Shown here: one piece after another, positions 3,226 to 21,517 of the stretch
How positions within the stretch are numbered: the first letter of the stretch is position 1
Layout: each line of letters begins with the position of its first letter
Assembly: GCA_016930435.1 (NCBI GenBank)
Contig: JAFGGQ010000106.1
Coordinates: 1 to 35,973, forward strand
Source of the DNA: a bacterium
Lineage (GTDB): Bacteria > UBP14 > UBA6098 > JAFGQG01
Direction: 5' to 3'
DNA: 35,973 bases
Position numbers and translations under genes: made by a program
The notes under the pieces: model-generated
Databases searched by the model: none
Told to the model about the DNA's origin: nothing
The model's input: only the letters and a program-made list of their open reading frames with translations

Positions 3226-3702
3226 TTAACCGCCCGTAAAAAGCAATCCAAGCAAGGAAGTCAGGGTAGATATTGCCTCAAGGACTGGTGGTGACAGGGG
3301 TTCTCCCCAATTCAGGGTTTGTGGTTGGATGCCCAGAAGGCAGCAATCCTTGTTCTCTTTCCGAAGGATAGCGCTCATAAGCCTTAGTGAAATCTGATGG
3401 GATGTTACGGGTGACTTCGGAAAGTACTCCGGTTCGAAAAGCTCTATATCACCGGGTAATCCCCCAAAATCAACGGCATCAATAAAGATGACCGTTTTCA
3501 GGTCGTACCGGTAAGCCAGGTCATAGAGATGTGTTTCGATACCATCCAGCTCGGAGAAGACCATGGTGGGGGCAGCCGCCTTCAGATTATCGGCAATATA
3601 GATTCCTAGGGCATCATCACCGCGGTCGGGATTTCCAAGTCCTATAATTGCAACCTTTCCATTTTGAAAAATGGATAGGAGTTTGATCCTGAGGGCTTCC
3701 AT
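3226..3702 (-). CDS. [NiFe] hydrogenase maturation protease (HycI/HyaD family)
   Basis: A 158-residue endopeptidase that removes the C-terminal tail of the hydrogenase large subunit once nickel has been inserted. The diagnostic GLGNPDRGDDALG is near residues 21-33, with the acidic nickel-sensing position. Further conserved features are an FIDAVDFGG strand and the TSHQISL segment that supplies the conserved histidine. It starts one base after the large-subunit stop, so its substrate is almost certainly the protein encoded next door. It is the last gene of the hydrogenase operon; no hyp maturation genes are in the window. Confidence 0.93.
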   Translation of the reverse strand: MEALRIKLLSIFQNGKVAIIGLGNPDRGDDALGIYIADNLKAAAPTMVFSELDGIETHLYDLAYRYDLKTVIFIDAVDFGGLPGDIELFEPEYFPKSPVTSHQISLRLMSAILRKENKDCCLLGIQPQTLNWGEPLSPPVLEAISTLTSLLGLLFTGG

Positions 3703-3703
3703 A

Positions 3704-4987
3704 TTATTTTCTGATTATTTTAATCATGTGGGCAGAGCAACTAATGCATGGGTCAAAAGCCCGGGCTATCATTTCCAGCTTGAATTCCAGTTTCTTTTCA
3801 TTGGGCTCCCCGATCAGATGGTCTGCGGCCTTGAAAAGATAGCGTTCGATATCATCCAGGTTTTGGGCGGTAGGAGTGGAGATGTCGCAGTCAGATGCCA
3901 GACCGTCCTTTAATTCGTAATGGTGGTACAGTGCGCCACGGGGCGCCTCTACCGCGCCTGTTCCGATACCGTTTTGGCGTTTTGGAATGACAACATCCGG
4001 AACCTTCAGGCCTACTATCCGGTCAACAAGGAGGGGTATATTTTCAAGGCAAAAGATTATTTCAAGGGCCTGGGCAAAGCAGAAATAAAGGGGATTTTTC
4101 TTCCACCTCTTATTGTAATAATCGGAGAAATATTGGCCAGCCTTGCCGGTAAGGCGTTCACCGAAAAGGTTTATCCGGGCCAGGGCGCCCACCGAAAAAG
4201 GTTTGCCCAGGTAGGAAGCTCTCTTTGCAAAAGAATACGGGACGACACGTTCATTGACCACACTTTTATATTCGGGGACCGGGAATTCATCTCCGTTGGA
4301 AATACGGATGGAATTACCCGCAAATCCGTATTTTCCGTCATCTGGATTGAGGGCAATGAAGGTTGTATCCTGATCCAGATAGGCAGGATAATCAAATATT
4401 CCGAACAACCCAGCCGCCTTTTCTGCCAGGGGCATGAGTTTAGCCGCTGAATTTTTAAGGTCCAACAGGTCTTTATTGGATGGATGTTTACCGAACCCCC
4501 CCAGAACGGGGTTTTCTCCGTGAACGGGCCGTCCGCTTAAAAGCCTGTTCATCTGGTAACCGAAACCCTTCAGGGTCATACCGGCTTCAACTTCGCCCGG
4601 ATAATCTGCTATCATCTCTACAACAGATGGATAACCGAGGAAATCGGGGAGGGATAGGTAGAACACGTGCAGGGCGTTGGATTGCAGTATCTCGCCGATA
4701 AGCATCAGTTCGCGTGTCAATTTAGTTCTCATGGGCACTTTGATATCCAGAGCATTTTCCAGGGCATTAATAGCTGCAAGTTTGTGAGATAGGCTACATA
4801 TTCCGCAGATCCTGGGTACTATATTGATTATCTCTCCGGGCGCTTTCCCAAGTACCAGTTGCTCGATGAGTCGGGGTCCTTCGTATATATTGACCCGCAC
4901 TTCTTTAACCTTTTTCCCCTCAAAGGTTACGCTTATACCGCCATGTCCCTCGACACGGGAGATGGTTTTTATGATCTTTTTTTTCAT
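3704..4987 (-). CDS. hydA: [NiFe] hydrogenase large (alpha) subunit, group 3b-like
   Basis: The catalytic subunit of a soluble NAD(P)-linked hydrogenase (427 residues), holding the NiFe(CN)2CO centre. The L1 motif RICGICSLSH gives C61 and C64, and the C-terminal L2 motif DPCISCSAH gives C414 and C417, so all four metal-binding cysteines are present. A seven-residue tail, MIKIIRK, follows H420 and is the expected substrate of the maturation protease next door. Gene order beta-gamma-delta-alpha matches archaeal and bacterial sulfhydrogenase operons (group 3b). Its ATG overlaps the delta-subunit stop in an ATGA junction. Confidence 0.95.
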   Translation of the reverse strand: MKKKIIKTISRVEGHGGISVTFEGKKVKEVRVNIYEGPRLIEQLVLGKAPGEIINIVPRICGICSLSHKLAAINALENALDIKVPMRTKLTRELMLIGEILQSNALHVFYLSLPDFLGYPSVVEMIADYPGEVEAGMTLKGFGYQMNRLLSGRPVHGENPVLGGFGKHPSNKDLLDLKNSAAKLMPLAEKAAGLFGIFDYPAYLDQDTTFIALNPDDGKYGFAGNSIRISNGDEFPVPEYKSVVNERVVPYSFAKRASYLGKPFSVGALARINLFGERLTGKAGQYFSDYYNKRWKKNPLYFCFAQALEIIFCLENIPLLVDRIVGLKVPDVVIPKRQNGIGTGAVEAPRGALYHHYELKDGLASDCDISTPTAQNLDDIERYLFKAADHLIGEPNEKKLEFKLEMIARAFDPCISCSAHMIKIIRK

Positions 4988-5766
4988 TTTATTTTGTCCA
5001 ATATTTTCCGAAGGCGATCAGCAATCACTGCGCCACCGAAATTTCTGAATTTTCGGATGATCTCTTCCCGTGAGTAGCCCTTTTCAAGCAGGAGCTTGAA
5101 TTCGGATGTGGTATTGGGTGTTTCAGCCGGGCCCCAGCATCCCACGCATGGGAGATTATGGGAGGGGCATATTGCCCCGCAACCGCCCCTGGTAAGAGGA
5201 CCCAGGCAGGGTAAACCCCGGTTCAAAAGACAGTCGTTTTCCTTCCATTTGCATTCGGTGCAGACCGGGAATGGATAGAGGTGGGGCTTGGTGTTATGAA
5301 GAACATGTGAGAGAGTATGCAAAAACTGGTCCTTGTCCATGGGGCAGCCGGGGATCAAATGATCAACCTTGACAAAGGCGCTGCAGGGTTGTGATTCAAA
5401 GGCTGCCATTTCCCGGTAGAGACCCTCATTGTTTTCATAAACCTTCATAAAGCGGTCTTTCCAGCCACCCTTGCCCAGTAACATCGATTGCACCCCACCA
5501 AAACAGGCGCAGGTTCCCATAGCAATCAGAACCTTGCTGGCCTTGCGAATTTCCTGTAACTCCTCTTTCTGATGCTGGGTAGTAATGGAACCCTCTAACA
5601 GGGCGATATCCAATTCGGAATATCGGTTATTACTTTGGGCCATGGGGAAGGTCTTGATCTCAAGGTCGCTAAAAATGTCCAATAGCTGTGCTTCACAATC
5701 AAGGATCATCAGTTGTTCACCGGAACACCCCGAAAAGCTGAAGATACCCACTTTTTTCTTTTCCAT
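4984..5766 (-). CDS. hydD: [NiFe] hydrogenase small (delta) subunit, group 3b-like
   Basis: This 260-residue iron-sulfur subunit relays electrons from the NiFe site. Three canonical proximal-cluster cysteines are visible: C14 (GCSGEQ), C86 (GTCACFGG) and C141 (PGCP). The usual fourth ligand of the CxxC pair is Glu (E17) here, with a nearby C24 in ILDCE that might substitute. Eight further cysteines between 169 and 210 (CTEC, C179, C187, C196, C200, CVGC) can bind two more [4Fe-4S] clusters. The gene follows the gamma subunit by 5 bp and overlaps hydA. Assignment is firm; the cluster variant is an observation worth checking. Confidence 0.93.
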   Translation of the reverse strand: MEKKKVGIFSFSGCSGEQLMILDCEAQLLDIFSDLEIKTFPMAQSNNRYSELDIALLEGSITTQHQKEELQEIRKASKVLIAMGTCACFGGVQSMLLGKGGWKDRFMKVYENNEGLYREMAAFESQPCSAFVKVDHLIPGCPMDKDQFLHTLSHVLHNTKPHLYPFPVCTECKWKENDCLLNRGLPCLGPLTRGGCGAICPSHNLPCVGCWGPAETPNTTSEFKLLLEKGYSREEIIRKFRNFGGAVIADRLRKILDKIK

Positions 5767-5771
5767 TAGGC

Positions 5772-6620
5772 TTAGATCAATCCTTTTTTGTTAATGATGT
5801 CCCAGTAAGTAAATACTGGTCCATCTATACAGGTATAAATATCACCGACGACACAATGGCCGCATTTTCCCACTCCGCACTTCATTCGCCGTTCCAGGGT
5901 CATCAGTATCTGGTTTTTGGGGATGCCCAACGCTATCAGTTTTTCGATGACGAAGCGATACATTACCGGTGGCCCGCAGACGGCTGCATAGGTATTCTGA
6001 ACATCGATGTTTTTCACGTATTTAAAGAGGTCTGTTACCTTTGAAATATAGCAGGGCCAATCGCCATCAGGATCATGGTCAACGGCCAGCAGGCAACCCA
6101 GATCATCCCGCTCAATAAACTCGAAGAACTCTTTCCTGAAAAGCATGTCGGCGGGTGTTCGAGCTCCGTAAAGATAATAGATGCGGCCGAAATTATCGCG
6201 ATTATCAAGGGCATATAGGATCAGGGAACGGAGTGGGGCAGCCCCCAATCCGCCGACTACAATAATGAAATCATGGCCCTTGATACGCTCCAGATCAAAG
6301 CCGTTTCCGTAGGGTCCCCGAATCCCTATAATGGCATTTTCTTTGAGGTCGAAAAGGGCCTCGGTAAACTCTCCTACCTTTCGAATACAAAATTCCAGCA
6401 GTCCCGGGCGAGATGGTGTTGAGGAGATTGAGAAGGGAGCTTCACCAATGCCGGCCAAGGAGAACATCATGAATTGGCCGGGGAGATATTTCAAAGAGAG
6501 TGCCCGTTCCATATCCACAAACCGCACCTGGAAAAAGCGCACGTCACTGGTAAGATCATATTTTCGGACGATCCGGGCTGGTTCCGGTAAAAAGGGATTT
6601 TCTTCTTGGAAATCGCTCAT
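5772..6620 (-). CDS. hydG: Hydrogenase gamma subunit, FAD/NAD(P)-binding with 2Fe-2S
   Basis: A 282-residue diaphorase subunit of the ferredoxin-NADP reductase family (HydG/PyrK/Fre-like) that exchanges electrons between pyridine nucleotide and the hydrogenase iron-sulfur chain. An N-terminal FAD-binding barrel carries YLPGQFMMFSL and APFSISS. A Rossmann domain carries the glycine-rich VVGGLGAAPLRSL. The C-terminus has C248, C253, C256 and C264, the CX4CX2CX7C pattern of a [2Fe-2S] site. It lies between beta and delta in the conserved group 3b order. NAD versus NADP preference cannot be read from sequence alone. Confidence 0.92.
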   Translation of the reverse strand: MSDFQEENPFLPEPARIVRKYDLTSDVRFFQVRFVDMERALSLKYLPGQFMMFSLAGIGEAPFSISSTPSRPGLLEFCIRKVGEFTEALFDLKENAIIGIRGPYGNGFDLERIKGHDFIIVVGGLGAAPLRSLILYALDNRDNFGRIYYLYGARTPADMLFRKEFFEFIERDDLGCLLAVDHDPDGDWPCYISKVTDLFKYVKNIDVQNTYAAVCGPPVMYRFVIEKLIALGIPKNQILMTLERRMKCGVGKCGHCVVGDIYTCIDGPVFTYWDIINKKGLI

Positions 6621-6631
6621 TTTTTTACCCT

Positions 6632-7687
6632 TTAAGGTTTTTTTGCTTTTGTACTTAGGGCTTGTTTTGTTTTATCGCCCAGTAATCGTTTGGAAACGGT
6701 AAGCACGTTTATGTCCACCGGGCAAGTATCCACGCATCTACCGCAGCCAACGCAGGCCGGGCGTTCCTGAGGGCCGAATGAATTGAGCTTATGCCAGTAC
6801 CATAGTCTAAGCCTTTCAGCCCTGCTTTCCCGGAAATTGTGGCCTCCCGCCACAACAGAATAGCCATTGAATGTACAGCTGTCCCAGTAGCGTTCCCGCT
6901 TGCCGGTTTCCGTGTTCAGATAGGGTTCATCGAATACATTATAACAATTACAGGTAGGGCACACCATGGTGCATGCGCCGCATTCCAGACACTTTTCTCC
7001 CATCTCTTCCCATACTGGATGCTCAGAGCTGAGCTCTACCAGATCCGGGATGATAGCCATGTCAATAATGTTGCAGGGTTCCTGAGTATATGAGCTCTTG
7101 CGGGTCACAAATTCGGAAAGGTCTTTGCGGCTGATATTATCGTTGAAAATTTCGGGCTTTAGGCGGATAAGGTCATCTCCCAGGCTTGAACCGACCCAAA
7201 CCAGATAATAATTGCCAAGGTCGGTAAAATAAAGATCAAATCCTTCCTTTATAAAATCCGTTCCCATAGATTGACAGAGGCAACTTTTCGGATAGCATGT
7301 GCAAAAAGAGGCTCCTAAAATCGCGGTTCTTTCCCGACGAATGGCATAATAAGGGTCACGGTACTGGCGCAGGAATATCTCGTCCATGATCAACAAACCA
7401 TGAATATCACAGGATGGAACCCCATAAACCACGCGCCGGGGAACCTCTTCCTGAGTATCCTGGTATTTTTCGCCCTCATATTGAAACATTTTTATCTTGG
7501 GAGGATAGATCAACTTTTTAAGCGGCAGCAAGGTACGCTGGGGCTGCAAGCTCATTTCGGAGATATCCTGGATATGTTCATAAACATAAACCTCCCCCTT
7601 TTTGACCGGACCCCATAATTCACCGAATTGCTTTGATGCTTCAAGAAACTCCGGGAGATGCCTTTTATTCATCCGCAGGACTCTCAT
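6632..7687 (-). CDS. hydB: Hydrogenase beta subunit, 4Fe-4S dicluster protein
   Basis: A 351-residue subunit resembling sulfhydrogenase beta (HydB/AsrA-like), carrying electrons between the gamma flavin subunit and the hydrogenase dimer. Two ferredoxin-type motifs lie in the C-terminal half: CLECGACTMVC followed by PTC, and C312-C315-C318-C322 in CVGCGRCVDTCP. Extra cysteines in ASFCTCYPKSCLC lie mid-protein. It is the first gene of the hydrogenase operon, preceded by AGGAG 7 nt before the ATG and by a good promoter. Related subunits in archaea were once credited with sulfur reduction; that activity cannot be inferred here. Confidence 0.92.
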   Translation of the reverse strand: MRVLRMNKRHLPEFLEASKQFGELWGPVKKGEVYVYEHIQDISEMSLQPQRTLLPLKKLIYPPKIKMFQYEGEKYQDTQEEVPRRVVYGVPSCDIHGLLIMDEIFLRQYRDPYYAIRRERTAILGASFCTCYPKSCLCQSMGTDFIKEGFDLYFTDLGNYYLVWVGSSLGDDLIRLKPEIFNDNISRKDLSEFVTRKSSYTQEPCNIIDMAIIPDLVELSSEHPVWEEMGEKCLECGACTMVCPTCNCYNVFDEPYLNTETGKRERYWDSCTFNGYSVVAGGHNFRESRAERLRLWYWHKLNSFGPQERPACVGCGRCVDTCPVDINVLTVSKRLLGDKTKQALSTKAKKP

Positions 7688-12084: not shown

Positions 12085-12378
12085 TTAACCCTCCAGGTCG
12101 GTGATCTCTGCCTCGGTAAAGAGGTAATCCTTCAGCTCATGGGCAAATGCCTGATCGAATCTTCTTATCCATTCGATAAGCATGGCAGCATGTTCTTTTT
12201 CTTCATCCCGGTTATGTTCCAGTATCTTGCGGAGGGATTCATCTTCGGTGGCATCCACTCGCTGCTGGTACCAATCGATGGCCTCCAGTTCCTCTTTAAG
12301 GGATAGTATGGCACGGTGCAGGTCAAGGGTGAAGCGTCCCATGTGTTTGCCATTTTCGGTTAACCCGTCGTAACCCAT
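12085..12378 (-). CDS. EncFtn-like ferritin (encapsulated-ferritin family)
   Basis: A 97-residue two-helix protein of the encapsulated ferritin family, whose members form a ferroxidase centre only on dimerisation and load iron into encapsulin nanocompartments. The segment EELEAIDWYQQRVDA (E32) and the RDEEKEHAAM segment (E60, H63) closely match that family. The protein ends in FTEAEITDLEG, right after the helical core, with no sign of the C-terminal cargo peptide that docks family members to the shell, and no encapsulin gene is in the window. It is the last gene before the terminator. It may act as a free ferroxidase, or the shell may be encoded elsewhere. Confidence 0.85.
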   Translation of the reverse strand: MGYDGLTENGKHMGRFTLDLHRAILSLKEELEAIDWYQQRVDATEDESLRKILEHNRDEEKEHAAMLIEWIRRFDQAFAHELKDYLFTEAEITDLEG

Positions 12379-12404: not shown

Positions 12405-12980
12405 TTAATAGGTTTTACACCAGATTTCGTAGTATCCTTGAGGGTGGGCGCAGGCCGGGCATATCTCAGGAGCCTCTGCTCCATCGTGAATATAACCGCA
12501 GTTCCGGCATTTCCACTTTACTACCTGTTCCCGTTTGAATATTTTACCGTTTTGAATGTTTTGGAACAGCGCGAGGTATCGTGCTTCGTGTTCCCTCTCT
12601 ACCCTGGCAATGCTTTCGAATAATTCGGCTATTTCCTCGAAACCCTCCTCCCGGGCGACCCTTGCCGCTTCGGGATAGAGAACAGTCCACTCCTCATTCT
12701 CACCAGCAGCAGCAGCTTTAAGGTTTTCGGTAGTGCTGCCGATCACACCGGAGGGAAAAGAGGCTTGAATCTCCACCATTCCACCCTCCAGAAACTTGAA
12801 GAATCTCTCAGCGTGCTCCTTTTCATTATCCGCGGTTTCCTGGAAAATGGCCGAAATCTGTATGTAACCCTCTTTCCTTGCCTTGCTTGAAAAAAAGGTG
12901 TACCGGTTTCGGGCCTGAGATTCACCCGCAAAAGAGGCCAATAGATTCTTTTCGGTTTTAGTCCCTTTTAGGCTAGTCAT
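12405..12980 (-). CDS. rbr: Rubrerythrin
   Basis: A 191-residue non-haem peroxidase that reduces hydrogen peroxide to water in anaerobes. An N-terminal four-helix di-iron domain (about 1-145) shows FAGESQARNRY, DNEKEHAERF and a second VEREHEARY helix. A C-terminal rubredoxin-like domain has C-x-x-C pairs in CRNCGYIHDG and CPACAHPQGYYE. Length and domain order are those of classical rubrerythrin. It lies 9 bp after desulfoferrodoxin, a common anaerobic pairing in which superoxide reductase produces the peroxide that rubrerythrin removes. Its electrons probably come from rubredoxin. Confidence 0.96.
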   Translation of the reverse strand: MTSLKGTKTEKNLLASFAGESQARNRYTFFSSKARKEGYIQISAIFQETADNEKEHAERFFKFLEGGMVEIQASFPSGVIGSTTENLKAAAAGENEEWTVLYPEAARVAREEGFEEIAELFESIARVEREHEARYLALFQNIQNGKIFKREQVVKWKCRNCGYIHDGAEAPEICPACAHPQGYYEIWCKTY

Positions 12981-12989
12981 ATTTACTCC

Positions 12990-13382
12990 TCAATTAGATT
13001 TCCAGAAACCATGGATGTTACAGTATGCCCGGGCATAAATATGTTCCTTGCAGTCCGCGCAGGATGAAAATTCAGCCTGGGGCGCCTCTCCCGGTTTTAG
13101 AAACTTTATACGGATGCGACCGCATTCCTCATCCACCAGTTCAATCCACTGAATATAGTGTTCCTCGGTCATAGGGTGGGGCACGCTTCCAACCTTGACA
13201 AGGATATTGTCACCCTCCGCCTCTATTACCGGCACATGTTTTTCAAGCGCTGCATCGACGGTGTTTGGTGCTAACAGGGTCATTGGTCTGCCGCAGCAAA
13301 CCAGTTGCCCCGCGCCACCCAATAATACCTCAACAGTATTACCACAGGTGCTACAGCGGTACACTTCAAATCGCTTTGCCAT
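12990..13382 (-). CDS. dfx: Desulfoferrodoxin (2Fe superoxide reductase)
   Basis: A 130-residue superoxide reductase that turns superoxide into hydrogen peroxide without making O2. The N-terminal desulforedoxin domain has C10, C13, C29 and C30 for centre I. The catalytic centre II ligands are visible as H49, H69, H75, C121 and H124, and the conserved E47-K48 pair precedes H49. Spacing agrees closely with the Desulfovibrio protein. It sits between the peroxiredoxin and rubrerythrin genes with about 10-bp gaps, so a superoxide-to-water pathway is encoded in one transcript. Confidence 0.96.
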   Translation of the reverse strand: MAKRFEVYRCSTCGNTVEVLLGGAGQLVCCGRPMTLLAPNTVDAALEKHVPVIEAEGDNILVKVGSVPHPMTEEHYIQWIELVDEECGRIRIKFLKPGEAPQAEFSSCADCKEHIYARAYCNIHGFWKSN

Positions 13383-13392
13383 TTCTTCCTCC

Positions 13393-14040
13393 TTATAGTT
13401 TCTTATGACATAACCACCAATCGAAACACTCGTATTTTTGAGTCCTTTCTTTTGCGGTTTTGATATCCTTTGCCGGGGGAATGATTACATGGTCGCCTAT
13501 TATCTCGTTATTCGGCCAGTTTGCGGGCATGGCTACCTTTTCCTGGTCGGCGATCTGCATTGCTTTAACCACCCTGAGTATCTCGTCCATATTGCGGCCC
13601 AGCTCCTGAGGATAGTAAAGGATTATCCGGATATACCCCTTGGAATCAACTACGAACACCGCCCGAACGGTATTGGTACCCTTTCCGGGATGAATCAAAC
13701 CCAGGGTATCTGCAATCTCACCGGTATCTGCAATTATGGGGAATTCTATTTCGATATCCATATTATCCTTGATCCATTCCACCCACTTGATGTGAGAGTA
13801 CACCTGGTCAACGCTCATCCCCACCAGTTCACAGTTCAAGGCCCTGAATTCCTGGTACCTTTTCTGAAAAGCGATGAATTCGGTAGTGCATACGGGTGTG
13901 AAATCAGCGGGATGGCTGAATAACACGAACCACTTACCCTCGAAATCGTCGGGGATGGTCATCATACCCATAGTGGTCTGTACTTCTAACTTGGGCAATT
14001 TATCGCCCAGCAGGGGCATTCCATAAAGATCATCACACAT
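13393..14040 (-). CDS. Peroxiredoxin, Prx6/archaeal type
   Basis: A 215-residue thiol peroxidase. The peroxidatic cysteine is C51 in the PxxxTxxC motif (PADFTPVC), and the long C-terminal arm typical of Prx6-type enzymes is present. The arm holds C205 and C211 in a CFDWWLC motif like that of archaeal peroxiredoxins, where such cysteines take part in the disulfide cycle, so this may work as a 2-Cys enzyme despite the Prx6 fold. It heads the Prx-Dfx-Rbr trio; a 76-bp gap separates it from rubredoxin upstream. AhpC-like naming would be less exact. Confidence 0.94.
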
Positions 14041-14116: not shown

Positions 14117-14278
14117 CTATTCAACTAGTTCGAATTCGCTTTTATCGGCGCCGCAGATAGGGCATACCCAGTCATCGGGCAACTCGTCGAATGATGTACC
14201 GGGATCGATTCCAGAATCCGGGTCGCCTTCCTGGGGGTCATAAACGTAACCACATACGGTGCAACGGTATTCTCCCAT
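14117..14278 (-). CDS. rub: Rubredoxin
   Basis: A 53-residue small iron protein. The reading frame from the ATG at 14278 to TAG at 14117 contains C6 and C9 (CTVCGY) and C39 and C42 (CPICGA), with the conserved YDP-EGDP and DDWVCP segments; length is exactly typical. A TTTCCTCC complement, giving AGGAGG, lies just upstream. It would carry electrons to rubrerythrin, desulfoferrodoxin or the ferritin-like proteins. Protein and DNA closely resemble the rubredoxin domain at the end of the flavin reductase fusion (18494-19198). It lies 24 bp after the NifU-like gene. Confidence 0.97.
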
Positions 14279-14302: not shown

Positions 14303-14686
14303 TTATTTTTTGGTTTTTTCCTTATAGTCCCTGATGGCAACATGCAGGGCATCAGCAGCCAAATTGGAACAATGCATCTTTTTGGGGGGCAATCCATCCA
14401 GTTCATTGGCGACATCGTCACGGGTGACCTTCAAAGCTTCATCAACATGCATTCCCTTGACCATTTCGGTGACCATGCTGCTGGTTGCGATGGCAGAGCC
14501 GCAACCAAAGGTTCGGAATTTAATCTCGGTGATGATGTCGTTTTCAACTTTGATATAGATCTCCATCAGGTCGCCGCAGACGGGGTTGCCAACTTTGCCG
14601 TAACCATCGGCGTTTTCAATAACCCCAACATTGCGGGGATTCATAAAGTGATCCAGCACCTTTTCACTATAACCAATGTCTGCCAT
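14303..14686 (-). CDS. NifU/IscU-type Fe-S scaffold protein
   Basis: A 127-residue scaffold on which [2Fe-2S] or [4Fe-4S] clusters are built. Ligands C37 (NPVCGD, with D39), C62 (GCGSAIA) and C106 (MHCSNLA, preceded by H105) are all present, and the fold matches IscU or the N-terminal domain of NifU. It lies 30 bp after the NifS-like gene, its expected partner. The HscA-binding LPPVK signature appears as LPPKK, as in NifU-type scaffolds not using the chaperone. Iron delivery partners are not obvious, though ferritin genes are nearby. Confidence 0.94.
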   Translation of the reverse strand: MADIGYSEKVLDHFMNPRNVGVIENADGYGKVGNPVCGDLMEIYIKVENDIITEIKFRTFGCGSAIATSSMVTEMVKGMHVDEALKVTRDDVANELDGLPPKKMHCSNLAADALHVAIRDYKEKTKK

Positions 14687-14716: not shown

Positions 14717-15868
14717 TTATAATGGTGATAACATTCGTAACTTTGCGACCGTATTTTTTACCGCTTCCACGGTTGGCGCAACCTCTTCTTCCCTGTTTTG
14801 GCGGCCCAGAGTGATCACCATGGAGCCATGCGCCTCCTCGTGTTTCAGGCCGATGGCCAGCAATACACGGGAAGCCTCCAGGGTTTGAGATGAGCAGGCA
14901 GAACCCGTAGCGATCTGGATGTTGAACATATCCATACTGAGCAGTATGCTTTCACCCTCTATCCTGGCGAATCGGAAGCTGGCATGATGGGGAAGGCGCT
15001 CGACAGGATGGCCGGTTAGGTAACTATCCTCGACTTTTAGAATACCCCTTATTAGTTCGTCCCGAATTTTCAGGTCATTTTGACGGTCTTTCTCCATGTC
15101 TTCTTTGGCGATCCGGGCTGCTTCACCCATTGCCGCGATCCCGAAGATATTTTCGGTACCCGAACGCAGCCCCCTTTCCTGTCCGCCACCGGGCATAATG
15201 GTTTGTATCTTGACGCCGGGCTTGATATAGAGGGCTCCTACCCCCTGGGGCCCATAAAGCGCATTGGAAGAAAGACTTAGCAGATCGATGCCGTCGGATT
15301 GCACATCAATGGGGATGTGACCAGCGGCGGCGCAGGCGTCAACGTGAAAATAAATCCCCTTACGGTGAACTATCTCACTGATCTCACGGATAGGCTGAAT
15401 GGTGCCGATCTCATTGTTGGCATACATGACCGAAGTAACTATGGTTTCAGGGGAAACGGCTTTTTCAAGCTCCCGAAGGTCTATATGGCCGTAATGATCA
15501 ACGGGTATTATGGTAAGCTTAAAACCCTGTTTCTGAAGCTCCTTCATAGGGTTGAAAACGGAGATATGCTCGATGGCACTGGCAACTATTTCCTGTCCCT
15601 TTGCCATATTCCGAAGGGCAGTCCCTCTGATGGCCAGATTGCTGGATTCCGTTGCTCCGCTGGTGAAGATGATGGACTTTTCATCCTCGGCGTTGATAAA
15701 CCCGGCCACTTTCTGACGGGCCGATTCGATAGCCGTTTTAGCCTCCAGGCCAGTACTGTAAAGGGAGGAAGGGTTGCCAAATGTGTCTTCCAGATATTTT
15801 CGGCCAAAGGCCAGAACCCTCTGATCCAGAGGGCAGGCAGAAGCATGGTCAAGGTAGATAATTTTCAT
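14717..15868 (-). CDS. NifS/IscS-like protein lacking the PLP-binding lysine
   Basis: A 383-residue class V aminotransferase-fold protein of the cysteine desulfurase family. Most of the active site is recognisable: TSGATESSN (71-79), EH101, HVDA (175-178), the substrate-binding RSGTEN (235-240) and the mobile-loop C325 in TGSACSSQT. The PLP Schiff-base site is not: where desulfurases read S-x-H-K-x-Y-G-P, this protein reads SSNALYGP, so the lysine is A203 and the preceding His is N202 (codons AAT GCG). It can hardly be a normal PLP desulfurase. The frame is otherwise intact and sits between NifU-like and DsrE genes. Archaeoglobus IscS is a known precedent for loss of this lysine. A cluster-assembly partner using free sulfide or sulfur from DsrE/TusA is an inference. 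Confidence 0.9.
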   Translation of the reverse strand: MKIIYLDHASACPLDQRVLAFGRKYLEDTFGNPSSLYSTGLEAKTAIESARQKVAGFINAEDEKSIIFTSGATESSNLAIRGTALRNMAKGQEIVASAIEHISVFNPMKELQKQGFKLTIIPVDHYGHIDLRELEKAVSPETIVTSVMYANNEIGTIQPIREISEIVHRKGIYFHVDACAAAGHIPIDVQSDGIDLLSLSSNALYGPQGVGALYIKPGVKIQTIMPGGGQERGLRSGTENIFGIAAMGEAARIAKEDMEKDRQNDLKIRDELIRGILKVEDSYLTGHPVERLPHHASFRFARIEGESILLSMDMFNIQIATGSACSSQTLEASRVLLAIGLKHEEAHGSMVITLGRQNREEEVAPTVEAVKNTVAKLRMLSPL

Positions 15869-15877
15869 AATAATCTC

Positions 15878-16231
15878 CTAAAAGGTGATTACCGCGTCGG
15901 CATCCAGGGCAAGATCGTTTAATGTACCGGCTCCTACGATCTTTGCGCCTGGGATTAACTCCACGTTATCCCAACCCAGCATCTTTTTGGAAGCCTCACA
16001 TACGAAGATATCCACACCCATATCCATTGTTTTTTTCAGCATTTCCGCCACCGTTGGGAAATTGCCGACCTTGATCTTTTCGGCTTCACCCCTCCGGAGA
16101 ACCCTCAGCCCGTTACCCAGATAATAAACCTGCGGTTCAATATCCATCATCTTGGCAGTCTGTGCTAAAATTAGGGGAGAATACTGTCTCTCCGGCAGAT
16201 CGGTCGTCTGAATATAAAGTATCTTAGACAT
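15878..16231 (-). CDS. DsrE-family sulfur-carrier-like protein
   Basis: A 117-residue protein of the DsrE/DsrF-like fold, whose members pass persulfide sulfur between proteins. The N-terminal strand KILYIQTTD and the FVCEASKKMLGW segment with a cysteine at the usual active-site strand fit the family. It lies 10 bp before the NifS-like gene and 11 bp after the TusA-like gene, an arrangement that suggests a sulfur relay. Substrate and direction of transfer cannot be deduced. It is small enough that a related DsrE-like subfamily label could also apply. Confidence 0.8.
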   Translation of the reverse strand: MSKILYIQTTDLPERQYSPLILAQTAKMMDIEPQVYYLGNGLRVLRRGEAEKIKVGNFPTVAEMLKKTMDMGVDIFVCEASKKMLGWDNVELIPGAKIVGAGTLNDLALDADAVITF

Positions 16232-16242
16232 TATTGTATCTC

Positions 16243-16485
16243 CTAACTGCGCTTTTTAATATAGAAGGTTAAGATATTACCCTTTTTTTCGAGCTTGAGA
16301 ACCTCGTGGCCGGTTCTTTTTGCCCATCTGGCGATATCCTCTTCGGCGGCTGGATCATCGGCTTCTACTTTAAGTACCTGACCAGCCTCCATTTTATCCA
16401 TTTCCTCCTTGGTCATGGCAATGGGAACGGGGCAAAAAAAACCTACACAATCAACTTCCCGGTCAAATAGTGGTTCGGGTGACAT
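16243..16485 (-). CDS. TusA/SirA-family sulfur carrier protein
   Basis: An 80-residue sulfur-transfer protein. The family motif CPxP is present as C18-P-V-P21, where the cysteine carries a persulfide; an additional C13 five residues earlier could form a disulfide or share sulfur. The rest follows the two-layer fold (VLKVEADDPAAEEDIARWAKRTGHEV). It lies directly upstream of DsrE and the NifS-like gene. TusA proteins normally receive sulfur from a desulfurase, which makes the missing lysine in the neighbouring NifS-like protein relevant. Confidence 0.92.
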   Translation of the reverse strand: MSPEPLFDREVDCVGFFCPVPIAMTKEEMDKMEAGQVLKVEADDPAAEEDIARWAKRTGHEVLKLEKKGNILTFYIKKRS

Positions 16486-16507: not shown

Positions 16508-17035
16508 TCAGGTAATGTTAGGTTTTTTCTGTGAACCGGGAGGATGAAATTCCCGTTGGGCCAATTCCCGGTCCAGTTCGCCGTAACCTCCGACTAATCC
16601 TCCAGCCCTCCGGGCTTTCTCAAGCAGCTCTTCGGCGGATTCCTCTTCCTCTTCCTGTTCGTCCAGAAACCACTGCAGCATATTGCGGGTATTCTGGTCA
16701 TTTTCCTTCTCGGCCATCATGGCAATATCCTTTATCATTGCTGTTACCGCCTGCTCGTGTTCATATACATTAAGGGCAACGGCGGTGGGATCGGCCCATT
16801 CCGGCGGGGGGGCTTCTATAGCATCCAGAGTAACCCGGGCTCCCTGATCATGAATATAGTCAAATATTCTCATGGCGTGAGTCATCTCTTCCCGGGCCTG
16901 AACCTTCATCCAGTTGGAAAATCCGGGTAATTTCCGGGATTCCAGATAAGCCGCCATGGAAAGGTATAGATAAGCTGAATACATTTCGCGGTTAACCTGG
17001 CGATTGAGTGCCTTCTCAAGGTTGATATTTAGCAT
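16508..17035 (-). CDS. ftnA: Ferritin (FtnA-type)
   Basis: A 175-residue non-haem ferritin that oxidises Fe(II) and stores it as a mineral in a 24-subunit shell. Ferroxidase ligands E17 (NREMYSAYLY), E50 and H53 (REEMTHAM) are at standard positions, and an acidic EQEEEEES-like stretch supplies later ligands. The C-terminal tail (HPPGSQKKPNIT) is not conserved. Its place between Nfu and TusA in a PerR-led operon fits removal of iron that would otherwise react with peroxide. Confidence 0.95.
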   Translation of the reverse strand: MLNINLEKALNRQVNREMYSAYLYLSMAAYLESRKLPGFSNWMKVQAREEMTHAMRIFDYIHDQGARVTLDAIEAPPPEWADPTAVALNVYEHEQAVTAMIKDIAMMAEKENDQNTRNMLQWFLDEQEEEEESAEELLEKARRAGGLVGGYGELDRELAQREFHPPGSQKKPNIT

Positions 17036-17050: not shown

Positions 17051-17272
17051 TTATACTGATTGAACTTCTTTTACTTCCGGGATTTCCTTTTTCAAAAGCC
17101 TTTCAATGCCCATCTTAAGGGTCATCTGGCTCATCGGACACCCCTTGCAGGCGCCGGTCAGTTTGACCTTGACGATACCGTCATCAGTGACCTCTACTAA
17201 TTCCACATCTCCTCCATCTGCCTGAAGGGAGGGTCGGATTTTATCCAGGGTTTTCTGTACCATTTCCAGCAT
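17051..17272 (-). CDS. Nfu-type Fe-S carrier (NifU C-terminal domain)
   Basis: A 73-residue stand-alone NifU C-terminal domain. The cluster-binding pair is C42-x-x-C45 in [11 protein letters not shown], and the N-terminal helix [21 protein letters not shown] is classic. Such proteins carry [4Fe-4S] clusters from the scaffold to targets, plausibly to Fe-S enzymes damaged by O2. It lies 32 bp after FprA and 15 bp before ferritin. NifU N- and C-terminal domains are thus encoded by separate genes in the same cluster. Confidence 0.93.
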
Positions 17273-17304: not shown

Positions 17305-18492
17305 TTATTCTGAATTTTTCAGCAACGATTTTCCCATCTCGACCCCGATTTCCCGAAAGGAAATCAGATCATCGGGGGAGGGGATATATGCTATTTTACC
17401 CCCTGGTTGAAAAATTTCCAATCCTGCGTTGACGAGTTCCCTTTCTATCTCCTGCACGCTTTCGCCGCTCCAGCCGAAAGAGCCAAAGGCAAAGCCTATT
17501 CGATTTCGGGGTCGCAATCCCCGGAAATAATTCAGGAATCCGGCTACTGTGGGCAGCATGGTTCGGTTCAGGGTGGGAGAGCCCACCAGTACTGCCCGGC
17601 TAAAGATAACGTCGGTCATTATATCGGAGATATCTGTGGTTTTAAGGTTCCGGATTACCGCAGGCACCCCGGCGTATTCAAGGCCCTCCATAAGGGCAAG
17701 GGCCAATTTCCGGGTAGAACCCCACATGCTATCATATATGATGACCGCACGTTTTTCGGATTGATAATCCGCCCACTTCTGGTAAGATTCCATTATTTGT
17801 GGAAGGAGTTTTCGCCAGATCAAACCATGGCTGGGGGCGATTACCTGTATATCCAGTGCCGATGCTGCCTCAAGGGCGCGTTTGACCTGATCCCCATAGG
17901 GCATCACGATATTGGCGTAATATTTGGCGGCTTCCTCGTGTAGTATCCCCCAGGAATACTGATCGTCAAAGCGTTCCGGTGATGCTATATGCTGGCCGAA
18001 GGAATCATTGGAAAAAAGGACCTTATCCTCCGGGCAGTAACTGACCATATTATCCGGCCAGTGAACCATGGGCGTAGGCAGAAAAGTAAGATTGCGTTTT
18101 CCAAGGTTGAGGGTGTCTCCCCCTTTCACGGGTTGAAGATCCCAGTCGCTTTTATAATGGGCCATTAATCCCTTTTCGCCCTGAATGGAGGTATAGATCC
18201 TGGCCTGAGGGGCAAGCTCTTTGATCCTGGGCAGGCCGCCGGAATGATCCATTTCAACGTGATTGGATATGATGTATTCGATTTTTGAGGGCTCCACGAT
18301 TTCCTTTATCCGTGAGATCATCTCATCTACCATATAATGCTTTACGGTGTCCACCAGGGTGATCTTCTCGTCCATTATCAAATAGGCATTGTAAGTTGTA
18401 CCCCGAGGGGTGGAATAACCGTGAAAGTTCCGGATATCCCAATCTATCCCTCCTACCCAAAATATTCCCGGTTTGATTTCAACTGGTTTCAT
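17305..18492 (-). CDS. fprA: FprA-type flavodiiron protein (O2/NO reductase)
   Basis: A 395-residue A-type flavoprotein (rubredoxin:oxygen oxidoreductase) that reduces O2 to water or NO to N2O. The N-terminal metallo-beta-lactamase-like domain has the di-iron motif H78-x-E80-x-D82-H83 with H-x-D ligands further on (MVHWPDN, FSNDSFG). The C-terminal flavodoxin domain (about 250-395) binds FMN ([13 protein letters not shown]). The frame extends upstream to 18675, but those 61 codons overlap the rubredoxin domain of the previous gene in another frame and are not conserved in type. The ATG at 18492, one base after that gene's stop, is the natural start. Confidence 0.95.
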
Positions 18493-18493
18493 T

Positions 18494-19198
18494 TTAATCC
18501 TCGACTTTCTCAAATTTGTCTTTTGATACCCCGCAAATAGGGCATACCCAGTCTGATGGCAGCTTTTCAAAAGATGTTCCGGGGGGAATGTTCGCGGTTG
18601 GATCCCCCTCTTTCGGATCGTAGATATAACCACATACGGTGCAGCGGTAACGGGGCGATGCTTCTTCTTGTGCAACGGCCTTGTCGGCGACGGGTTCTTC
18701 GATATAGGTGGGCGCCGATTTGGGTGCTTTGCCGCGTTTTACCCGGTGATAGTAAGAATAGGTCATGGGTTCGCCCTCGCCAAGTAGTTCGGCCTCCACC
18801 ACTTCACCCATGAATAGCGTATGAGAACCGACATCCATAGTAGCCCTTAATTCTACTTCTAAATATCCTGCTGAATAGTTGGTGGGTATCAGGGAACCGG
18901 TTTTGCCGACTTTATAATTAATCCCTTTAAATTTATCAATATCACGACCGCTTTTAAATCCGAACAAACCGATATGGGTCATGGGTGCCTCTTCGGTAAG
19001 TATGGATACGGTGAAGACCCTGTTTCGGGTGATAAATTCATGGGTATAATTCTGTTTATTGATACAGACTGCTATCTGTGGCGGATCGGAAGTAACCTGG
19101 AAAACGGTATTGGCAATCTGCCCGTTACACTTGTCTTCCGTTCCGGAGCTGACAATGTAAAGACCATAGCTGATCTTGTGTAGTGTTTGTGGATTCAA
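18494..19198 (-). CDS. hrb: Flavin reductase-rubredoxin fusion (Hrb, high-molecular-weight rubredoxin)
   Basis: A 234-residue two-domain electron carrier. Residues 1 to about 160 are a flavin reductase-like FMN domain ([36 protein letters not shown]). A charged linker leads to a C-terminal rubredoxin from about 182 with CTVCGY and CPICGV. In Moorella the equivalent Hrb passes electrons from NADH to FprA, and here fprA follows at one base, so the two are certainly one functional pair. The rubredoxin part is strikingly similar to the separate rubredoxin gene at 14117-14278. Confidence 0.95.
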
Positions 19199-21067: not shown

Positions 21068-21517
21068 TTATTCGTTTTCCAAACGAGCCTTTTCTTTTTC
21101 CTTTTTTAAACACTCCGGACAAAGTCCATAAAGGTAAGCCTGAACTTCATCCACATAACAACCCCCAATTTTGACCTCCTGGATGATAGGACAACCATTG
21201 GGACAATCGAAATGAATATCCATCACTTTTCCGCAGTTCCGGCAAAGTAAATGATGATGTGATTTCTGACCCAGCTCAAAACAGGCCTTACTTCTCTTTC
21301 GAATGGATAATTCCTGAATTTCCCCCAGGTTCTTCAGCAGTTCCAGGGTCGCATAAACGGTGGCCAATGACATTGTAGGATATTTTTTCTTGATAGCCTT
21401 GTATATGTCATCTACAGTGGGATGGTTATGAACCTTTTCAAGATATTCAAGCACCGCAATTCTTTGGGGGGTCAGCTTGACCTTCTTGCTTCTCAAGCGC
21501 TCCAGAATCTCTTTCAT
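21068..21517 (-). CDS. perR: Fur-family regulator, PerR-like
   Basis: A 149-residue metal-dependent repressor. The winged-helix DNA-binding half has HPTVDDIYKAI and TMSLATVYATLELL, closest to PerR. The structural zinc site is C92-x-x-C95 with C133-x-x-C136. Sensing-site ligands by alignment to Bacillus PerR are H32, H87, H89 and D100, but the position equal to PerR D85 is Glu (E81), as in Fur. PerR uses oxidation of these histidines by peroxide to release DNA. As first gene of the 17-gene defence cluster it probably controls the cluster and itself. The upstream region has several palindromes. Confidence 0.9.
   Translation of the reverse strand: MKEILERLRSKKVKLTPQRIAVLEYLEKVHNHPTVDDIYKAIKKKYPTMSLATVYATLELLKNLGEIQELSIRKRSKACFELGQKSHHHLLCRNCGKVMDIHFDCPNGCPIIQEVKIGGCYVDEVQAYLYGLCPECLKKEKEKARLENE

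Follow-up and report, generated by a model that had tools for sequence, protein, structure and literature searches.

The closest described counterpart of the gene analyzed here is the IscS of Archaeoglobus fulgidus, known together with its IscU (PDB 4eb5, 4eb7 and 4hvk; D199K mutant, 4r5f). Like the protein of our locus it keeps the mobile-loop cysteine, with Asn-Asp in place of the His-Lys pair of the PLP site, Ala in place of the PLP-contacting Gln and Leu in place of the substrate-binding Arg. According to PMC7585200 and the title of Pagnier 2015, this protein is without desulfurase activity and ligates the cluster on IscU through a cysteine. However, PLP is drawn bound in PDB 4EB5 (PMC9769115) and the title of entry 4hvk speaks of an “unusual L-cysteine desulfurase”, so that the activity record of A. 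fulgidus IscS is in conflict. Published proposals for the sulfur supply of A. fulgidus-type IscS, as excerpted, comprise only the ligand role or environmental sulfide. In Methanosarcina acetivorans, IscS1 (MA0808) also lacks the catalytic lysine; its genes iscS1U1 are grouped with four others described as being of unknown function, and the protein was insoluble when made in E. coli (PMC7585200). The minimal iron-sulfur system of methanogens, MIS (MisS-MisU, Garcia et al.), is a two-gene system of IscS and IscU homologs that the excerpted text presents as a cysteine desulfurase and a scaffold, with mention of neither a lysine-less state nor TusA or DsrE (PMC12442378). In the E. coli complex of TusA with IscS, TusA Cys19 lies 4 Å from IscS Cys328; the binding sites of TusA and IscU on IscS overlap, and the two proteins compete for them (PMC11302665).

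Active site of the window IscS

The window, by which we mean the whole stretch of 35,973 nucleotides that was analyzed, contains an iscS gene whose product lacks the PLP lysine. The positions discussed below are:

14717..15868 (-), Lys-less IscS/NifS homolog, 383 aa, ATG start (PF00266, 272.7 bits)
15263-15265 (-), N202 (AAT), His column of the PLP site
15260-15262 (-), A203 (GCG), Lys column of the PLP site
15329..15331 (-), A180 codon (101/101 Lys-containing homologs have Gln here)
14816..14818 (-), V351 codon (101/101 Lys-containing homologs have Arg here)
14894..14896 (-), C325 codon, mobile-loop cysteine, retained in 132/132 Lys-less homologs

The open reading frame runs on the minus strand from an ATG at 15868 to a stop codon ending at 14717, with no internal stop. 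Its PLP-site motif reads S200-S201-N202-A203-L204-Y205-G206-P207. The column is set by a HMMER alignment with A. fulgidus IscS, which reads SSNDIYGP (PDB 4eb5), and with the D199K form, which reads SSNKIYGP (4r5f). By this and by alignment with 232 homologs, A203 occupies the column of the PLP lysine and N202 the His column before it. This bears out the preliminary description, which had read SSNALYGP as a site without the lysine but had put the codons at 15270-15276, about 10 bases from their true place at 15260-15265 on the minus strand. Its further statement that the substrate-binding motifs remain does not hold: V351 occupies the column of E. coli IscS R354, the Arg of the cysteine (substrate) carboxylate, and A180 that of Q183, the PLP-contacting Gln. 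The mobile-loop cysteine does remain, as had been noted (C325, motif GSACSS), and H101, D177, N151 and T73 are retained. Measured against a catalytic group I cysteine desulfurase, the protein has the loop cysteine and is without both the PLP Schiff-base lysine (A203) and the substrate-binding Arg (V351); it also scores below every NCBIfam desulfurase cut-off (442 vs 531 for TIGR03402; 394 vs 643 for TIGR02006).

The N-terminal DHASACP, described as an altered motif, is a real change (the Thr11 column is Thr in 96% of Lys-containing homologs vs 2% of group A, defined below). GNPSSLY is not a defect, since Tyr also occurs there in the Lys-containing homologs L011, L065 and L069. An AlphaFold2 model of the protein has a mean pLDDT of 90.7, the Cys loop being its least certain part (low pLDDT at residues 326-328). 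In VIA-align the best matches, at 48-49% identity and Z ~52, are the A. fulgidus IscS structures 4r5f, 4hvk and 4eb5, and E. coli IscS aligns at Z 51.5-51.6; the pLDDT and the Z scores of 51-52 to IscS structures identify a full-length fold type I protein. A. fulgidus IscS, already named as a precedent, is the right one and is also the nearest solved structure. Against the nearest relative (69% identical), a pN of 0.217 vs a pS of 0.861 (saturated) indicates purifying selection, in agreement with the earlier reading of an intact frame and not simple decay. This relative has GAT where the window gene has GCG, a difference of two bases, and GCG is at least 2 bases from either Lys codon (AAA, AAG).

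Lysine-less IscS proteins across genomes

The comparison covers 233 unique IscS homologs, drawn from a scan of genome contigs, from relatives, and from the phyla of G056 (a Methanocellales genome), G046 (a Thermoplasmata genome), G026 and G049 (a genome titled Deltaproteobacteria). The PLP Lys is absent in 132 of the 233, and the Arg of the substrate carboxylate site is absent in every one of these and kept in all 101 Lys-containing homologs. The PLP-contacting Gln follows the same division (absent in 131/132, present in 101/101), and the loop Cys and the PLP-stacking His101 are retained throughout. A scan of all columns for those fixed in Lys-containing sequences and lost in group A or B returned only seven (11, 12, 180, 202, 203, 243 and 351), six of which fall in known active-site motifs; the seventh, 243, changes from Gly to Ala. 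The lesion is confined to the active site, and from these sequences desulfurase chemistry is predicted to have been removed from the Lys-less class and the remainder of the protein kept. No report of this family-wide joint loss of Lys, Arg and Gln was found in the open literature searched. Another lysine as Schiff base was considered and rejected, the alignment having no invariant Lys; those conserved in more than 90% of group A are Lys 109 and 113, neither of them in an active-site motif.

Group A comprises 84 sequences including two outliers, mostly with Asn-Asp at the His-Lys columns, and takes in the window protein and those of A. fulgidus, Methanosaeta, Methanoculleus and Thermoplasmata, as well as proteins from records titled WOR-3, Cloacimonadota, Syntrophomonas and Desulfobacteraceae. 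Asp occupies the Lys position in 78 of 82 group-A sequences and Ala in two, namely the window protein and L212, an archaeal homolog 68% identical to it (motif SSSALYGP). The preliminary description had treated the gene as a singular case, but the Lys-less family is widespread, and only Ala for the usual Asp is uncommon. Asp is not essential to group A, whose residue pattern the window protein otherwise shows (A203, V351, A180, C325). Group B comprises 48 sequences in which the Lys position holds Arg, Gln, Thr, Pro or Ser. It draws on 27 genomes of the small phylum of G026 (HR/QR), on G017 (QT) and, with 20 sequences, on the phylum of G049. Each of the 27 genomes fetched for the phylum of G026 (L182-L208) encodes an IscS with Arg at that position (H-R or Q-R), in nearly every case together with iscU and tusA.

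In trees built without the trait columns, the window IscS lies inside the group-A clade (SH-aLRT 96; 90 in a smaller set) and the starred branches part groups A and B. A single Lys-less clade is nevertheless not rejected by the AU test (p 0.58 and 0.61), and convergent loss of the lysine was therefore set aside as a firm claim. Later trees left out L031, a Lys-less long branch. This NifS-like gene (L031/L283, G022; GANGFYGP and GTAC) lies behind an Rrf2-type regulator and has no linked sulfur carrier. The archaeal genome G052 carries, beside an SSND module, a second and solitary Lys-less IscS (L137/L282) with an SQD motif and Ala at the Arg column, with neither iscU nor tusA nearby.

Gene context of lysine-less iscS

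The window iscS belongs to a run of genes on one strand that begins with a PerR/Fur homolog (21517) and ends at 12085. This run includes rubrerythrins and the following genes:

21068..21517 (-), PerR/Fur-family regulator, head of the run (best NCBIfam match PerR, 122.7 bits, under the cut-off of 180)
18494..19198 (-), flavin reductase with C-terminal rubredoxin, HRB-like (ORF sequence only)
17305..18675 (-), flavodiiron protein (PF19583, PF00258)
17051..17272 (-), Nfu C-terminal-domain carrier (PF01106, 110.9 bits)
16508..17035 (-), ferritin (PF00210, 146.3 bits)
16243..16485 (-), TusA sulfur carrier, 80 aa, CPVP (PF01206, 88.8 bits)
15878..16231 (-), DsrE/DsrF-family protein, 117 aa, Cys78 (PF02635, 63.9 bits)
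14303..14686 (-), IscU scaffold, NifU_N (PF01592, 175 bits; TIGR03419, 213 vs cut-off 188)
14117..14278 (-), 53-aa rubredoxin-like protein, encoded between the iscU and peroxiredoxin genes (match to the rubredoxin section of the HRB profile)
13393..14040 (-), peroxiredoxin (PF00578)
12990..13382 (-), desulfoferrodoxin (PF01880, PF06397)
12405..12980 (-), rubrerythrin-like (ORF sequence only)

The genes tusA, dsrE, iscS and iscU are tightly packed, with gaps of 11 bases (tusA-dsrE), 9 bases (dsrE-iscS) and 30 bases (iscS-iscU). Window TusA has the CPxP cysteine (CPVP), and window IscU, whose nearest structures are 7c8m and 4eb5_C, has the cluster site of three Cys and one Asp (C37, D39, C62 and C106). 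A weak promoter-like TTGACA-16-TATGTT lies at 21670-21643. ORF lists that start at 60 aa miss the 53-aa rubredoxin-like gene. The run closes with 12085-12378 (-), which encodes a candidate encapsulin-associated ferritin-like protein (TIGR04535, 122.8 bits vs cut-off 125), and an apparent NiFe-hydrogenase set occupies 3226-7687 (-), with large and small subunits, flavin/Fe-S electron-transfer subunits and a maturation protease (ORF sequences only). The locus had been called an Fe-S operon, which is too narrow for a run that also holds iron and oxidative-stress genes. Among loci of at least 6 kb, at least one stress/iron family occurs in 14/24 Lys-less vs 1/48 Lys-containing loci, and at least two in 13/24 vs 0/48. 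Elsewhere in the genome, where a check for a canonical NifS had been advised, we found a canonical iscS (C122, SGHKLYGP), a canonical iscS-iscU pair (C127, SGHKIYGP), two additional TusA and another NifU_N protein; the window module is thus an addition and not the sole Fe-S system.

Counting tusA and/or dsrE within 1.5 kb and on the same strand as iscS, linkage is found for 115 of the 132 Lys-less genes vs 1 of the 101 Lys-containing ones (Fisher's p 2e-46, which is not independent evidence, the rows being related); these linkage counts, like the residue counts above, come from related homologs and are not phylogenetically independent. For comparison, iscU is linked to 120/132 and 62/101, respectively. 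By group, the tusA/dsrE linkage amounts to 81/84 in A (exceptions L031, L137 and L167) and 34/48 in B, the latter splitting into 27/28 for the G026/G017 set and 7/20 for the phylum of G049. Within the fetched loci, neither gene accompanies the second, Lys-containing iscS of the same genomes (L138-L146). The usual group-A order is tusA-dsrE-iscS-iscU. In E. coli, tusA lies outside the isc operon. Group B shows iscS-iscU-tusA, iscU-tusA-iscS, iscS-iscU-dsrE-tusA and tusA-iscS-iscU, and from this variety the linkage is not one inherited block. For 13 of the 20 Lys-less genes in the phylum of G049, tusA/dsrE are absent from the fetched flank, so TusA is not obligatory there. Some iscS-iscU runs of that phylum (L267-L274) have a 117-aa SufT/DUF59-looking gene (MTKREILRILDHILDPDLRDRSIVEMGF...) in the place of tusA/dsrE.

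Every cysteine that a sulfur relay through these proteins would need is conserved. In counts from 112 Lys-less genes, the TusA CPxP cysteine is present in 102/102 proteins beside Lys-less iscS, DsrE Cys78 in 67/68 relatives, IscU C37/D39/C62 in 103/103 and C106 in 99/103. Seven TusA ORFs seemingly without the CPxP Cys raised the idea of selenocysteine, which was dropped when reading upstream gave Cys codons and non-ATG starts that the ORF finder had truncated. The A. fulgidus genome (G176, with a 100% match to the 4eb5 sequence) has two loci with identical IscU (about 7045-7326 in L177; 7772-8362 in L178). L178 holds a complete tusA-dsrE-iscS-iscU; L177, from which the crystallised IscS comes, has a 5'-shortened dsrE followed by iscS-iscU, with no adjacent tusA. 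No paper linking Lys-less IscS with tusA/dsrE was found in the open-licence PMC text searched. Lys-less IscS is a known oddity, and what is new here is the gene context, with its near-exclusive tusA/dsrE linkage that includes A. fulgidus.

Sulfur supply and comparison with known systems

Gene linkage alone does not show interaction. The adjacency of tusA and dsrE nevertheless suggests that Lys-less IscS may receive its sulfur from these carriers, and an alternative sulfur source tied to TusA/DsrE, raised in the preliminary description, gains backing from comparative genomics (115/132 loci). We lean, with a little better than even confidence, toward a persulfide-fed ISC module running DsrE to TusA to IscS Cys325 to IscU, in which IscS is a cysteine relay and cluster ligand and not a desulfurase. 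Sulfane sulfur would be loaded on DsrE/TusA (Cys78 and Cys18, respectively), with sulfide, polysulfide or some other compound as donor, and handed on to IscS Cys325; the IscS loop would then carry it to IscU and could serve as the fourth ligand of the nascent [2Fe-2S] cluster. We infer the direction of flow, the physical contacts, the sulfane-sulfur source and the regulation from the residues and the gene context. Such a flow would reverse the E. coli direction, where IscS Cys328 supplies TusA Cys19, and suggests that sulfur traffic through IscS can go either way. Persulfide exchange is reversible in principle. Given the competition of TusA and IscU for E. coli IscS, the relay would have to be sequential, and given the iron/oxidative-stress run that holds its genes, stress of this kind probably induces the module.

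The main competing account is the published view of A. fulgidus IscS (PMC7585200; title of Pagnier 2015), by which the Lys-less protein is a ligand donor to IscU, its loop Cys completing the [2Fe-2S] site, with inorganic sulfide coming from the medium and TusA/DsrE serving another client. In M. maripaludis, according to the literature, sulfide directly supplies the sulfur of Fe-S clusters, and many Lys-less genes of the phylum of G049 have no linked tusA/dsrE; we nonetheless regard this account as unlikely, as it leaves unexplained why tusA/dsrE stand beside Lys-less genes so much more often than beside Lys-containing ones, and in several gene orders. A role in sulfur storage, repair or export, with sulfur from damaged clusters moving off IscU/IscS onto TusA to serve tRNA thiolation or stress sensing without cysteine, would fit both the E. 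coli flow from IscS to TusA (PMC11302665) and the stress/iron genes that flank Lys-less loci. The two other TusA and two canonical IscS of the genome speak against such a role, as does the fact that reading through the loci brought no thiolation gene to notice; it seems to us improbable.

Continued cysteine desulfurase activity, with PLP held non-covalently and another residue acting as base, might be read from the PLP drawn in 4EB5 (PMC9769115), the 4hvk title and the retained H101, D177, N151 and T73. It is very improbable in view of the substrate Arg gone from all 132 Lys-less homologs, the lack of an invariant Lys (Lys 109 and 113 being outside the active-site motifs) and the reported inactivity of A. 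fulgidus IscS (title of Pagnier 2015). Decay or a sequencing error behind the missing lysine would suit a fragmented draft genome of 180 contigs, and error had been named as a way to overturn the preliminary description. We give it hardly any credence: the frame is intact with pN far below pS, the codon is at least 2 bases from any for Lys, two further catalytic columns (Arg and Gln) are lost in concert, 131 other homologs are also without Lys, and L212 shows the same Ala in SSSALYGP.

The persulfide relay might extend to a distinct and widespread ISC variant, in which persulfide from DsrE-TusA into IscS replaces cysteine desulfuration, in reverse to E. coli, with Lys and Arg lost more than once, each time with recruitment of tusA/dsrE, for Fe-S assembly under iron/oxidative stress in archaea and anaerobic bacteria; we advance this wider scenario tentatively and hold it to be rather doubtful. 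A large share of the proteins annotated as “cysteine desulfurases” in archaea, and in one phylum that contains Deltaproteobacteria, are unlikely to be desulfurases, and such a class would affect the annotation of sulfur metabolism. Through their near-exclusive linkage, TusA and DsrE become specific candidate donors, and sulfur supply can be put to the test with easily expressed proteins.

Among known systems, E. coli IscS-TusA and IscS-IscU (3lvj, 3lvl) share the fold, the partner families and the cysteines of the window set. The difference is that in E. coli the PLP Lys and substrate Arg are both present in IscS, which itself provides the sulfur. For the scaffold, the closest solved structures to window IscU (E 2e-60) are probably those of Methanothrix thermoacetophila IscU (7c8m, 7cnv and 9wcv, by our assignment); the IscU of that organism is named A0B757 in PMC13423590, and only the scaffold was studied there. 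A. fulgidus IscS is 48-49% identical to the window protein over its full length (Z ~52), and its gene is accompanied by dsrE and, at one of the two loci, by tusA as well. The window differs from it in having Ala and not Asp at the Lys position, and in the placement of its genes within a long run with PerR/Fur, rubrerythrin, ferritin and desulfoferrodoxin genes.
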